Of a stretch of DNA of 64,000 bases, positions 33,780-37,955 are shown one piece after another. Source of the DNA: Bacteroidales bacterium (GTDB lineage: Bacteria; Bacteroidota; Bacteroidia; Bacteroidales; Marinilabiliaceae). The notes under the pieces are model-generated. The model did no database searches. It saw only the letters and a list, made by a program, of their open reading frames with translations, and had not been told where the DNA came from. The first letter of the stretch is position 1. The number at the start of each line of letters is the position of its first letter. The position numbers and the translations under genes were made by a program. The stretch spans positions 31,308 through 95,307 of the forward strand of contig JAKSLH010000009.1 in NCBI GenBank assembly GCA_024401335.1, given 5' to 3'.

Positions 33780-34556
33780 TCATTTCTGTATGTTCTTGCG
33801 AAGCTCAGACAGATAATCCTTCATCTCCTGAGTATCCCTCTTCTCAACGATATTGCGAAGACGCTTCATCTGCTCCACGACCTGATCGATCTTGTCGGGA
33901 GTATATGGGCTGAAGAGTATCTCGGACAAGAGGTAGTCGTCTTCCGAAAGCACACCCTTAGCGGTCTCGTAATGCTTAGTAAAAGTAGTACCCGGAGCAT
34001 CAGGGAATCGCATACTGGCCGCGAAAGCCATAGAAGCCACGAAAGGTATCGAAAGCGAATAGGTCATCGTCTCGTCGTGTTCATCAAAGGTATATTCATG
34101 AAGATTGAGTCCGAGCGAAGCATAGAAGTCATTAAAGAACACCTTACCCATATCGTCGCCCTCGCTTATGACAATCGCATGGTTCTTTCTGAGTTCACGC
34201 AGATTGGCGAATGTCGGTCCAAACATAGGGTGAGTAGAGACATAAGGGTGACCAGACTTCTCATAGAACTCCTTAAGGCCATTCTTAACGGATGCGATAT
34301 CAGAAAGCATACATGAAGGCGAGAGATATGGAAGCACATCTTCGAAAGTCTTCAAAGTATATTTCAGAGTAACGGCATTAATCAGCAGTTCAGGATCGAA
34401 GTCCCTCACCTCATCAAGAGTAGTAAGGCGACGAGTGTTGAACACATACTGCAGACGACGCACGTCGACGTCATAGATAGCCACTTCATGAAGCAAGCAC
34501 ATAGAGTCGGCAAAGAACGACCCCATCTTGCCTGCACCGACGATACAGATTCTCAT
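33780..34556 (-). CDS. tyrA: Prephenate dehydrogenase (TyrA family)
   Basis: A 258-residue cytoplasmic enzyme that oxidatively decarboxylates prephenate to 4-hydroxyphenylpyruvate, the last committed step toward Tyr. The Rossmann NAD loop GAGKMGSFF is at 7-15. SDIASVKNGLKEFY and STHPMFGPT form the prephenate-binding segment with the conserved His, and the C-terminal helical dimerisation domain follows (SIPFVASMAFAASM). It lacks a fused chorismate mutase, which is instead joined to the DAHP synthase encoded one base upstream. Last gene of the aromatic operon. Confidence 0.95.
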   Translation of the reverse strand: MRICIVGAGKMGSFFADSMCLLHEVAIYDVDVRRLQYVFNTRRLTTLDEVRDFDPELLINAVTLKYTLKTFEDVLPYLSPSCMLSDIASVKNGLKEFYEKSGHPYVSTHPMFGPTFANLRELRKNHAIVISEGDDMGKVFFNDFYASLGLNLHEYTFDEHDETMTYSLSIPFVASMAFAASMRFPDAPGTTFTKHYETAKGVLSEDDYLLSEILFSPYTPDKIDQVVEQMKRLRNIVEKRDTQEMKDYLSELRKNIQK

Positions 34557-34557
34557 C

Positions 34558-35655
34558 TTACTGTTTCTTTGAAAGTTCCTTCATGATATTGTTCTGTGTA
34601 GCGATAGACTCCTCATGGATATCCTCGTACACCTTAACGACAAATTCAGGATTAAGTCCAGCCTTCTCAGCCTTTTCACGACGGTTGTTGAGCACTTCAT
34701 CGTAGCGGCGTTCCTGAAGGATAGTTATGCCATGTTCGAACTTGTAGCGACCTATAGCTTCAGAGATCTTCATACGCTTAGCGAGAGCGTCGAGAAGAGT
34801 ATAGTCGAGCTTATCGATCTCACCACGAAGCTCCTCGAGAGTCTGACTTGGTGTGCCGTCGAGAGCATGGCTACGTATCACGAGTCCATCGAGAATCATC
34901 TTAAGGTGAGCAGGAGTAACCTGCTGCTTAGCATCGCTCCATGCCTGTGCAGGGCACTCATGGCTCTCGATGATAAGACCGTCGAAATTGAGGTCCATAG
35001 CCTCCTGCGACATATCCTGAATAAGGTTGCAATCACCAGTGATATGTGATGGGTCGGTGATGATAGGCAATTCAGGGATACGACGGTGGAGCTCAATAGG
35101 AATCTGGAACATAGGGTGGTTGCGGTACTTAGTCTTCTCATAAGTAGAGAAACCGCGATGAATAGCACCCAGCTTCTTGATGCCAGCTCTATTGAGACGT
35201 TCGAAAGCTCCGATCCACAATTCAAGGTCAGGGTTTACTGGATTCTTGATAAGCACAGGGATGTTTGTGCCACGAAGAGCGTCGGCAATCTCCTGTACGG
35301 CAAATGGGTTGGCAGTAGTGCGGGCACCAATCCAGAGGAGGTCAACACCATATTTGATAGCCTCATGAACATGGTGAGCAGTAGCAACCTCAGTAGAGAC
35401 ATACATGCCAGTCTCCTTCTTTACGCGCTGCAACCATACGAGACCTTCAGAGCCCACTCCTTCGAAAGCACCTGGACGAGTACGAGGCTTCCAGATACCT
35501 GCACGGAAGATCTTAATACCATTTTCGGCAAGTCCACGAGCTGTATTCATCACCTGCTCTTCTGTTTCTGCAGAGCAAGGACCAGCTATGACGAGTGGAC
35601 GAGTATTTTCTAAACCAGGGAGCGTTATCGGCTCCAGTTCCAATTTTGATTCCAT
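34558..35655 (-). CDS. aroG: Bifunctional DAHP synthase / chorismate mutase
   Basis: A 365-residue fusion. Residues 1-260 are a type I (KDO8PS-like) 3-deoxy-7-phosphoheptulonate synthase, which starts the shikimate pathway from PEP and erythrose 4-phosphate: VIAGPCSAET, FRAGIWKPRTRPGAFEG, STEVATAHH, LWIGARTT, ITDPSHITG. Residues 270-365 are an AroQ-type chorismate mutase (LRGEIDKLDYTLLDALAKRM, RYDEVLNNRREKAE). The mutase part makes prephenate and is also the likely site of feedback control of the synthase. This fusion is typical of Bacteroidota. Second last gene of the operon, 1 bp before tyrA. Confidence 0.95.
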   Translation of the reverse strand: MESKLELEPITLPGLENTRPLVIAGPCSAETEEQVMNTARGLAENGIKIFRAGIWKPRTRPGAFEGVGSEGLVWLQRVKKETGMYVSTEVATAHHVHEAIKYGVDLLWIGARTTANPFAVQEIADALRGTNIPVLIKNPVNPDLELWIGAFERLNRAGIKKLGAIHRGFSTYEKTKYRNHPMFQIPIELHRRIPELPIITDPSHITGDCNLIQDMSQEAMDLNFDGLIIESHECPAQAWSDAKQQVTPAHLKMILDGLVIRSHALDGTPSQTLEELRGEIDKLDYTLLDALAKRMKISEAIGRYKFEHGITILQERRYDEVLNNRREKAEKAGLNPEFVVKVYEDIHEESIATQNNIMKELSKKQ

Positions 35656-35696: not shown

Positions 35697-36857
35697 CTAT
35701 TTCATTGCCTTGATACGCTTGAGAGCCTCTTCAAATACAGGCACCTTAGCGCAAAGAGATATTCTCAAGAAGCGTTCACCCTGCTCACCGAAGATGAAAC
35801 CAGGAGTGATAAACACGCCAGTCTGGTTTAATATCTCGTCGCTCTGAGCCTCAGCGCTAGCCCATTTCTCATCAACACGAGCCCACACGAAGAGACCTCC
35901 CTGTTCACGGTTAACCTTGCATCCAAGTGTCTCCATTATCTCGAAGGCATATTTCTGTCTCTCGCGATATTCCTTGTTAATCTTATCGAACCAGTCCTTC
36001 TTAAGGCTCAGCGCCTTTGCGGCTGCCACCTGCATAGGACGGAACACACCGCTATCCATATTGGACTTAACCTTGAGCACTGTAGCGATAACCTCAGCAT
36101 TTGATGCTGCCATACCGAAACGCCATCCTGCCATGTTGTGAGCCTTTGACATAGAGTTGAGCTCAATAGCAACATCCTTAGCACCTTCAACAGCAAGGAG
36201 GCTTATAGGATTGTCGTTAAGGATAAAGCTATAAGGATTATCGTTGCAGATCAGAATGCTATGACGACGTCCGAAATCAACGATCTTCTTGTAGAGCTCC
36301 ATTGTTGCAGGAGCGCCAGTAGGCATGTTAGGATAGTTGATCCACATCATCTTAACGCCAGTGAGATCCATCTTCTCGAGTTCTTCGAAATCAGGTTCCC
36401 AGCCGAGCTCCTCATACAACTTATATTTGATTGTGCGTGCGCCAACGAGGTTAGCAACCGACGAATATGTAGGATAGCCAGGATCGGGAACAAGCACACC
36501 GTCACCTTCGTTGATGAAGGCCATCATGATGTGCATTATACCCTCCTTAGAGCCTATAAGAGGAAGCACTTCGTTGGCAGGATTGAGTTCTACTCCATAC
36601 CACTCCTTATACCATGAGGCATAACCTTCTCTCAATTCAGGAATACCGACATAGGACTGATATCCATGCACGTTAGGCTTGCGAGCCTCTGAGGCGAGTG
36701 TCTCAATAACCTCATCAGCTGGAGGCATATCAGGACTACCGATACCGAGATTTATAATATCTACGCCCGACTTACGCATAGCATCGAGTCGGCGATTATT
36801 GCGCGAGAAGTAATATTCCTGTACTGTACTTACGCGGTTGGCTGGTGTTATTATCAT
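35697..36857 (-). CDS. Class I/II PLP-dependent aminotransferase, probably aromatic
   Basis: A 386-residue fold-type I aminotransferase. PLP-binding elements are visible: NLGIGSPDMPP near the N-terminus, GSKEGIMHI, YPNMPTGAPA (the NPxNPTG-type segment), NDNPYSFI and the Schiff-base K238 in SMSKAHNMAGWRFG. Its sequence resembles LL-diaminopimelate and aspartate/aromatic aminotransferases. Its place between pheA and the DAHP synthase/chorismate mutase gene argues that it converts phenylpyruvate and 4-hydroxyphenylpyruvate to Phe and Tyr. Specificity is inferred from context. The intergenic gaps of 23 and 41 bp fit one transcript. Confidence 0.92.
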   Translation of the reverse strand: MIITPANRVSTVQEYYFSRNNRRLDAMRKSGVDIINLGIGSPDMPPADEVIETLASEARKPNVHGYQSYVGIPELREGYASWYKEWYGVELNPANEVLPLIGSKEGIMHIMMAFINEGDGVLVPDPGYPTYSSVANLVGARTIKYKLYEELGWEPDFEELEKMDLTGVKMMWINYPNMPTGAPATMELYKKIVDFGRRHSILICNDNPYSFILNDNPISLLAVEGAKDVAIELNSMSKAHNMAGWRFGMAASNAEVIATVLKVKSNMDSGVFRPMQVAAAKALSLKKDWFDKINKEYRERQKYAFEIMETLGCKVNREQGGLFVWARVDEKWASAEAQSDEILNQTGVFITPGFIFGEQGERFLRISLCAKVPVFEEALKRIKAMK

Positions 36858-36880: not shown

Positions 36881-37750
36881 TTAGTCTTCATCAGACTGAC
36901 GTCCATTCTCATATTCTCCGAGAACTATCAGTTTGCCACACAATGGCCTTACTGCATCGAGAGCCTGAATATAACGTGTATAATTGCTAAACGAGAGGTC
37001 AACATAGAAGACATATTCCCATTCATGTCCGACAACCGGATTTGACTGTATCTTCGAGAGATTCAATCCATAGAAGGCAAGTATCGTCAACACCTTAGAA
37101 AGGCTGCCAACCTCTTGGGCCTGAGGAAGCGAGAACACAATTGACGAACGATTGATGCGGTTCTGGGCACGAAGGTCATCAACCTCTGTACGTCCTCGGT
37201 CACTCACAACCAGAAAACGTGTAAAATTCTTCTTGTTGGTCTCAATGCTTGGCTTTATAATCTCAAGGCCGTAGAGTTCTGCGGCTATGGCAGGAGCAAC
37301 AGCTGCCACATTTCTGAGTTGCTTATCGGCAACCTCTTTAGCCGAGAGAGCGGTATCGACACTCTCTACAAGTCGGATATGGGGATAACCACGGAAAAAC
37401 TGTTCACACTGGAGCAATGCCATAGGATGTGTATGCACCTCAGTTATCTCATCTATCTTTACACCAGGCAACGCCATGAGATTGTGCTTAATGCGCAACT
37501 TGTATTCACCTATGACCTCAAGGCCCGAATCCTTCAGAAGAGTATAATTACCCTGCAAAGAACCTGCTATGGTATTCTCTATTGCAACAATGCCATAAAG
37601 CGAACGGTCTTCTTTCACCTTATCAAAGAGCTCTTCAAATGTATCGCATGGAACAACCTCCACTTCACTACCCTTGAAGAACTCGCGTGCAGCAATCTCA
37701 TGATTGGCTCCCGCTACGCCCTGAATGGCTACCCTCTTAACGTCTTTCAT
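36881..37750 (-). CDS. pheA: Prephenate dehydratase
   Basis: A 289-residue cytoplasmic enzyme (EC 4.2.1.51) that turns prephenate into phenylpyruvate. The catalytic periplasmic-binding-like domain spans 1-180 (VAIQGVAGANHEIAARE, GIVAIENTIAGSLQGNY, NFTRFLVVSD with the TRF motif). A C-terminal ACT domain (about 200-280) contains SLSKVLTILAFYGLNLSKIQS, the Phe-sensing ESRP-like region being PVVGHEWEYVFYVD. It is free-standing, without a fused mutase. First gene of the Phe/Tyr operon, it lies just behind a leader-peptide attenuator (37771-37902). Confidence 0.96.
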   Translation of the reverse strand: MKDVKRVAIQGVAGANHEIAAREFFKGSEVEVVPCDTFEELFDKVKEDRSLYGIVAIENTIAGSLQGNYTLLKDSGLEVIGEYKLRIKHNLMALPGVKIDEITEVHTHPMALLQCEQFFRGYPHIRLVESVDTALSAKEVADKQLRNVAAVAPAIAAELYGLEIIKPSIETNKKNFTRFLVVSDRGRTEVDDLRAQNRINRSSIVFSLPQAQEVGSLSKVLTILAFYGLNLSKIQSNPVVGHEWEYVFYVDLSFSNYTRYIQALDAVRPLCGKLIVLGEYENGRQSDED

Positions 37751-37763
37751 CGTTATTTGTCAT

Positions 37764-37797
37764 ACAAAACAAAAGCCCACCTTGTTCGGGTGGGCTC
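37764..37797 (-). terminator. Attenuator terminator hairpin in front of pheA
   Basis: On the minus strand AGCCCACC (37789-37796) pairs perfectly with GGTGGGCT (37774-37781) around a 7-nt loop, followed by TTTGTTTTG. It stands between a leader peptide and the pheA start codon, so it would stop transcription before the operon. Its 5' arm overlaps CCCACCC (37788-37794), which can instead pair with GGGTGGG inside the leader peptide gene (37834-37840). Confidence 0.8.
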
Positions 37798-37821
37798 TGT
37801 AAGTTTCTTTATATCGTTATT

Positions 37822-37902
37822 TTACATACAACACCCACCCTTTTCTTGGCGATAGCCAAAAAAGTAAAAGTAAAAACCGATATAAAATCGTGTGTTGCAC
37901 AT
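37822..37902 (-). CDS. Phe/Tyr leader peptide of the pheA operon attenuator
   Basis: A 26-codon frame (ATG 37900-37902, TAA 37822-37824), too short for routine gene calling. Its translation begins MCNTRFYIGFYFYFFGY and continues RQEKGGCCM, with five Phe and four Tyr, nine aromatic residues in twelve positions (6-17). The downstream operon makes exactly Phe and Tyr. A short hairpin, TTGGC-TATC-GCCAA, covers 37846-37859. Codons 22-23 carry the GGGTGGG that can pair with the terminator's 5' arm. Stalling at Phe/Tyr codons would leave GGGTGGG free and block the terminator; reading to the stop codon would cover it. This is the logic of enterobacterial pheL. Confidence 0.8.
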   Translation of the reverse strand: MCNTRFYIGFYFYFFGYRQEKGGCCM

Positions 37903-37947
37903 AACATTGTTAATTTATTCTCTTTTCGTGTATCAATTTTCACAATG

Positions 37948-37955
37948 CAAATTTA
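37948..37955 (-). promoter_or_regulatory. -7 element of the pheA operon leader
   Basis: TAAATTTG on the minus strand matches TAnnTTTG exactly; the start would be near 37941, giving a leader of about 40 nt before the leader peptide. The -33 element is not clear. Confidence 0.45.

Follow-up and report, generated by a model that had tools for sequence, protein, structure and literature searches.

The leader upstream of pheA in the 64,000-nt stretch of Bacteroidales DNA analysed here (the window) is very probably a classic ribosome-mediated transcription attenuator that would sense both charged tRNA-Phe and tRNA-Tyr. The pheA attenuator as such is real and well supported, and its mechanism is an ordinary one of a known kind. 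Less expected are its breadth in the Bacteroidia and the predicted joint sensing of Phe and Tyr. The source assembly comprises 2,715,117 bases in 33 contigs and is 84.64% complete; among named records, those closest to the PheA of the window are from uncultured Bacteroidales and Marinilabiliaceae, including MAGs of horse, reindeer, goat and sheep origin.

The leader is followed on the minus strand by pheA, an aminotransferase gene, aroF/CM and tyrA (Table 1). An earlier note on this DNA had located the box, the frame, the terminator and the pairing arms, and all of these coordinates were exact. It had also stated that the four genes downstream lead to Phe and Tyr, and Pfam confirmed a prephenate dehydratase, an aminotransferase, a DAHP synthase with chorismate mutase and a prephenate dehydrogenase. 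For the aminotransferase, the 25 listed of 67 NCBIfam matches were all under the cut-off.

Table 1. Features of the putative pheA attenuator and the downstream operon in the window.
Feature	Positions	Strand	Basis
Presumed promoter -7 box TAAATTTG, TAnnTTTG type	37948..37955	-	sequence; conserved in relatives
Leader peptide frame MCNTRFYIGFYFYFFGYRQEKGGCCM plus stop, 26 codons	37822..37902	-	sequence; similar frames in relatives
Putative sensing stretch FYIGFYFYFFGY, codons 6-17, nine aromatic residues	37852..37887	-	
Region 2 GGGTGGGT, candidate antiterminator 5' arm, within the leader frame	37833..37840	-	
Region 3 GCCCACCC, alternative partner of region 2 or region 4	37788..37795	-	
Predicted intrinsic terminator hairpin, regions 3:4	37773..37797	-	
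T-rich tail TTTTGTTTTGT	37764..37774	-	sequence
pheA, prephenate dehydratase	36881..37750	-	PF00800, E 3.3e-55
Class I/II aminotransferase	35697..36857	-	PF00155
DAHP synthase - chorismate mutase fusion	34558..35655	-	PF00793 + PF01817
tyrA, prephenate dehydrogenase	33780..34556	-	PF02153

Five Phe and four Tyr codons are found in the leader frame, all of them within codons 6 to 17. When the 350-nt region before pheA was dinucleotide-shuffled 100 times, no shuffle matched this richness in F, Y and W. An out-of-frame upstream ATG at 37907 (MLCATHDFISVFTFTFLAIAKKRVGVVCKITI, recognized by eye) was set aside as leader start, because the leaders of close relatives follow the FYxGFYFYFFGY frame. The region 37760-37948 exceeded all of 200 dinucleotide shuffles in fold stability (z -4.1). 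The terminator arms AGCCCACC and GGTGGGCT are located at 37796-37789 and 37781-37774 and are followed by the T-rich tail. The antiterminator arms are GGGTGGG (37840-37834), which is part of the leader frame, and CCCACCC (37794-37788), which can also pair with GGTGGGC in the terminator. The terminator was likewise detected by a pattern scan (37798-37772), which returned 5 terminator-like sites in 5.1 kb in comparison to 3.6 in shuffles, so that the scan alone is weak evidence. Beside these arms, UUUAUAUCG in the leader (37878-37886, minus strand) is exactly complementary to CGAUAUAAA past the stop codon (37808-37816).

The proposed mode of action is that of the enterobacterial trp, his and phe attenuators. 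RNA polymerase would start upstream of the leader frame, as the conserved promoter-like box suggests, and a ribosome would translate the 26-codon leader behind it. When Phe and Tyr are ample, the ribosome would pass the aromatic codons and cover GGGTGGG; CCCACCC would then pair with GGTGGGC and transcription would end before pheA. When Phe or Tyr is scarce, the ribosome would stall on the aromatic codons and the free GGGTGGG would pair with CCCACCC, which would pre-empt the terminator and allow transcription of the genes from pheA through the aminotransferase gene and aroF/CM to tyrA. Because the operon makes both amino acids, both the Phe and the Tyr codons are expected to matter.

In support of such a start, 65 of the 92 leader loci had a TAnnTTTG box, in the window TAAATTTG, which we take to be the -7 promoter box, no more than 110 nt ahead of the leader ATG, in comparison to a mean of 8.4 and a maximum of 15 in 50 runs of a Markov control. 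A transcription start downstream of the leader, which the earlier note had named as an objection to its own reading, is counter-indicated by this conserved promoter-like box.

The distribution of the leader was determined in three sets of pheA loci. PheA was matched in 45 of the 61 relatives searched; among 247 class genomes, 73 gave a match and 174 had none to this query. From the resulting 116 genomes in all, G042 (contig ends at pheA) as well as G082 and G272 (weak PheA matches) were removed, which gave the 113 loci of set 1 (the window, L011 and L046-L156). The 350 nt upstream of pheA were scanned for ATG frames of 8-50 codons, F+Y+W was scored per 14 codons, and in set 1 a leader was accepted if it scored 5 or higher and no more than 10 of 100 shuffles did equally well. 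An aromatic leader frame was found upstream of pheA in 92 of the 113 loci, and the conservation of the Phe/Tyr frame that the earlier note had proposed to look for is thus present in the class. Of the 21 loci not accepted, L097 by eye has a GTG-start leader and a terminator, and L156 is cut off and has only 101 nt upstream.

The scan showed no leader in the remaining 19 of 113 loci (L052, L053, L059, L064, L066, L069, L072, L074, L075, L083, L085, L087, L090, L092, L108, L110, L111, L113 and L114), 12 of which were also checked by eye. In several of these, a TAnnTTTG-like box lies right at pheA or pheA lies close behind another gene, and the attenuator has apparently been lost. In L069, L074, L085, L108 and L111 the box is about 15 nt or less from the start codon of the leaderless pheA.

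Set 2 consisted of the best 80 of 464 named relatives, three of which had too little upstream sequence; set 3 consisted of 44 loci, of which the family of G054 supplied 18 and the order 26 (covering the best 30 places of one of the searches). A leader was present in 76 of the 77 loci of set 2 (score of at least 6), the scan finding none in L241, and 43 of the 44 loci of set 3 passed by score, with none found in L307. Set 2 overlaps set 1, six loci of set 3 belong to genomes of set 1, and the three sets lack phylogenetic independence. One leader of set 3 that passed by score (L295) was disbelieved, as its pheA lies close behind another frame, so that 42 were accepted. Of 20 genomes sampled from the phylum outside the class, 2 have such a leader by score and eye (L249, L264). 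At one locus (L045, from G060 C7; also in L125), tandem leader-terminator units were seen by eye before pheA, MARLNNNYFYSYYFYFSKWGLGNCCIL with a terminator and then MFYYYFFYYP with a second terminator, which are possibly two attenuators in series.

The aromatic cores of the 92 leaders are coding. Of their 1009 codons in frame 0, 466 specify Phe, 329 Tyr and 33 Trp, but only 4 specify Leu and 5 Ile. In frame +1 the cores would encode Phe, Ile, Thr, Ser and Leu, and in frame +2 mainly Leu and Phe, interrupted by 48 stops. The few Leu and Ile codons in frame 0 and the stops in frame +2 indicate a coding frame and not a mere U tract. Among ten leaders of the genus and family, third codon positions accounted for 153 of 301 pairwise differences; of the codon differences, 108 were synonymous and 117 non-synonymous, and the synonymous change alone gives modest support. 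A U tract instead of a reading frame was ruled out, as the frame retains Phe and Tyr, shuns Leu and Ile and varies most at third positions.

A T-tailed hairpin between leader and pheA was predicted in all 92 leader loci, including poor or distant picks in L055, L084, L107, L112 and L121. In a swap test, the sequence from the midpoint of the aromatic run onwards was paired with its own terminator arm or with those of other loci. The antiterminator duplex with the own arm had a median of -15.05 kcal/mol, in comparison to -10.1 kcal/mol with swapped arms; the own arm was better than every swap in 23, among the best 5% in 45 and among the best 10% in 65 of the 92 loci. The two arms change together: GGGTGGG/CCCACCC in the window corresponds to CAGTGAGC/GCTCACTG in congeners and to GAAGCGGGA/TCCCGCTTC, GCCGGGACT/AGTCCCGGC and GACCGGGA/TCCCGGTC in other loci.

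The earlier note had further proposed a search for covariation in both hairpins, and this covariation was observed in an alignment of 30 rows, made up of the window plus 29 of the 50 family loci, hand-picked before counting. The rows left out were near duplicates or had a longer leader or terminator (L168, L175, L178, L184, L188, L193, L194, L196-L198, L200, L206, L208-L212 and L214-L217). The antiterminator helix showed 90.4% standard pairs and 25 cells with both sides changed (9.9 in shuffles), and the terminator helix 100% standard pairs and 47 such cells (11.6 in shuffles). The covariation scores of 0.367 for the antiterminator (0.209 in shuffles) and 0.526 for the terminator (0.219 in shuffles) were each reached by 0 of 500 shuffles, which ignore relatedness; six slid versions that keep it all gave at most 0.153. 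Counted by helix pair, double changes were no more numerous than in the shuffles, of which 208 of 500 (antiterminator) and 64 of 500 (terminator) reached the count. Together with the conserved frame, the covariation supports the attenuator reading of the earlier note.

The arrangement of the codons also fits a translating ribosome. In the window, region 2 starts 14 nt downstream of where the last Tyr codon begins. Spacing, masking and codon shuffling were analysed in the 65 loci that ranked in the top 10% in the swap test, 27 of the 92 being excluded. In these preselected loci, region 2 starts 3-19 nt (median 12) downstream of where the last aromatic codon begins, and on average 2.57 non-aromatic codons lie between, in comparison to 0.95 +/- 0.16 in codon-shuffled leaders; this gap fits the downstream footprint of a ribosome.

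When a ribosome with an assumed footprint of 14 nt behind and 12 nt ahead was moved along the leader codon by codon, the predicted mean probability of the antiterminator was 0.88 as long as the ribosome occupied aromatic codons and 0.08 once it had passed them, and it dropped by at least 0.5 in 64 of the 65 preselected loci. From 0.86 at the codon preceding the last aromatic one, the mean fell to 0.56 on that codon, 0.21 at the next and 0.02 at the one after. In the window the modelled probability was 1.00 through codon 16, 0.87 at Tyr17, 0.47 at codon 18 and 0 from codon 19; at the stop codon it depended on the footprint (0.61 with 11 nt behind, 0.01 with 14 nt). Without a ribosome and before arm 4 is made, the equilibrium favours the antiterminator (1.00 in the window, mean 0.79 over the 65 loci); the classic attenuation model requires termination when the leader is untranslated. 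Region 2, however, is predicted to be paired with upstream sequence already when region 3 has yet to be made (window 0.92; 0.5 or more in 56 of 65 loci), so that a kinetic block is possible. Once arm 4 is present, the terminator reached at least 0.90 at equilibrium at any ribosome position in five of six loci tried, including the window, and therefore the switch would have to be kinetic; the exception was L133, in which the terminator varied from 0.00 to 0.97 with ribosome position. Dependence on the order of helix formation is a usual assumption for attenuators.

An RNA-only or protein-dependent switch (riboswitch, T-box or RNA-binding protein), for which the small frame would be incidental, could likewise explain the strong folding of the leader region and the covariation of both terminator and antiterminator. 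It is highly improbable, however, as no Rfam family was found at the gathering score in the 64-kb window, the conserved part before region 2 is a frame that shuns Leu and Ile codons, and the spacing between the last aromatic codon and region 2 suits a ribosome. Scarcely credible is a role in reinitiation, by which the leader would boost the translation of pheA and have no control of termination. Short upstream frames, Bacteroidetes included, are discussed in this other role in the relevant passage of PMC4833913, where leaders near genes are argued to act by reinitiation and an enrichment in Bacteroidetes is noted for frames at a distance of 11-14 bp; the distance considered in that passage is 10-16 bp, whereas 71 nt and the terminator lie between the leader stop and pheA in the window.

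Within the attenuator reading, it is unlikely that the leader senses only Phe and that the Tyr codons, TAT and TAC, serve the U-rich arm or the peptide. Enterobacterial pheL senses Phe only, and in the cores studied here Phe occurs in 92 of 92 and is commoner than Tyr. Against this, Tyr occurs in 90 of the 92 cores and is spelled both TAT (190) and TAC (139); a mixed Phe and Tyr leader, which the earlier note had regarded as unusual, is therefore the norm in this group. Phe-only cores were found at two unrelated leader loci with an apparently solitary pheA (L117/L265 and L305), and Tyr is retained in all 17 other loci of the family of L117/L265. These findings argue for sensing of both amino acids.

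The analysis of operon content covered sets 1 and 3 and, from set 2, L239. In L117/L265, the gene after pheA lies on the opposite strand and the leader core is MTRFFTHFFFFFTQQ. The core of L305 is FRFFFFFAFFF, with Tyr only after region 2; no Phe or Tyr gene was found in the 1.5 kb after its pheA by tblastn and by eye, a result that rests partly on the eye, since tblastn with the TyrA of the window misses distant TyrA proteins (e.g. L273). L239 has a Tyr-free leader despite aminotransferase-like and aroF-like genes downstream (by eye). Loss of Tyr with a solitary pheA, seen in two cases and with L239 to the contrary, is a lead. In L142/L205 (Anaerophaga thermohalophila) the scored frame contains no Tyr and the T run is one base shorter than in relatives; this frame shift might be either a sequencing error or a real change.

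Beside Phe and Tyr, a Trp codon occurs within the run in 33 of the 92 cores (e.g. L095, L103, L089, L149). Some of these Trp codons fall in a TTTTTTTGG motif common to many relatives, so that structure may account for part of them. As a tentative reading, which might well turn out otherwise, the leader could represent an ancestral, class-wide aromatic attenuator of the Bacteroidia that reads Phe and Tyr jointly and whose codon mix tracks operon content. This reading would include the Trp codons and the vanishing of Tyr codons where the operon is cut to pheA.

Further attenuators are probably employed elsewhere in the same genome. A Trp leader with three consecutive Trp codons (WWW; MKMNTNIWWWRPSL; L157, 741-870) lies upstream of a trpE-like gene, a His leader with seven consecutive His codons (MNALHHHHHHHTDD; L159, minus strand, about 2271-2150) upstream of hisG, and a Leu leader (MIESINILALSLLGSLLLEKQ; L160, 1337-1480) upstream of a leuA-like gene. 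Behind each lies a T-tailed hairpin, recognized visually and from the fold, and each has a possible antiterminator, all within this one genome. No clear leader was found in the scan of its homoserine dehydrogenase locus.

Leader-peptide attenuation is textbook knowledge in Proteobacteria, and the closest known system is the enterobacterial pheA leader (Rfam RF01859, Phe_leader), which likewise has an aromatic leader peptide, a terminator just before pheA and mutually exclusive hairpins. Of all Rfam families, Phe_leader matched the region best, with an alignment that spans the full model (31.2 bits; E 0.0015 and 0.00088), but under the gathering score of 55 bits. This score was passed in none of 61 related genomes, and equally weak matches occur elsewhere in them. 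The Phe_leader alignment seems to put the pairing of UUUAUAUCG and CGAUAUAAA in the outer helix. In contrast to Phe_leader, the leader of the window carries Tyr besides Phe; its PheA lacks the chorismate mutase domain that E. coli PheA carries, and its operon extends to the aminotransferase gene, aroF/CM and tyrA. The enterobacterial thr (Thr, Ile) and ilv (Ile, Val, Leu) attenuators also use a single leader with codons for several end products of a pathway, whereas here the pair is Phe and Tyr and the bacteria are different. We know of no multi-amino-acid attenuator with this pair.

Among the literature matches listed there was no publication on a pheA attenuator in Bacteroidia; a comparative study by Lopatovskaya et al. 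from 2010 is a likely precedent and may already list some Bacteroidetes leaders. In 2010, according to the passage concerned, no leader-peptide system had been shown beyond Proteobacteria and Actinobacteria, with the exception of ermC, and a case from Firmicutes was added (PMC2965389). For Flavobacterium psychrophilum, a member of the same phylum, strong indications of attenuation by leader peptides ahead of amino-acid operons are mentioned in a passage that names neither operon, codon content nor structure (PMC9723704), and small frames of B. thetaiotaomicron are described as reminiscent of leader peptides (PMC7366714, in part). In the literature searched, as far as these passages go, the precedents for the phylum are hints only.

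Among the Bacteroidia genomes examined, the leader is the usual arrangement before pheA, with Trp, His and Leu siblings in the same genome. The attenuator makes transcription-translation coupling in Bacteroidota, in which translation is initiated largely without Shine-Dalgarno sites, directly testable. In addition, the loci with different operon and codon content form a natural series for asking what each codon senses. If the ancestral, class-wide reading is true, tight coupling of transcription and translation would be implied in this phylum.
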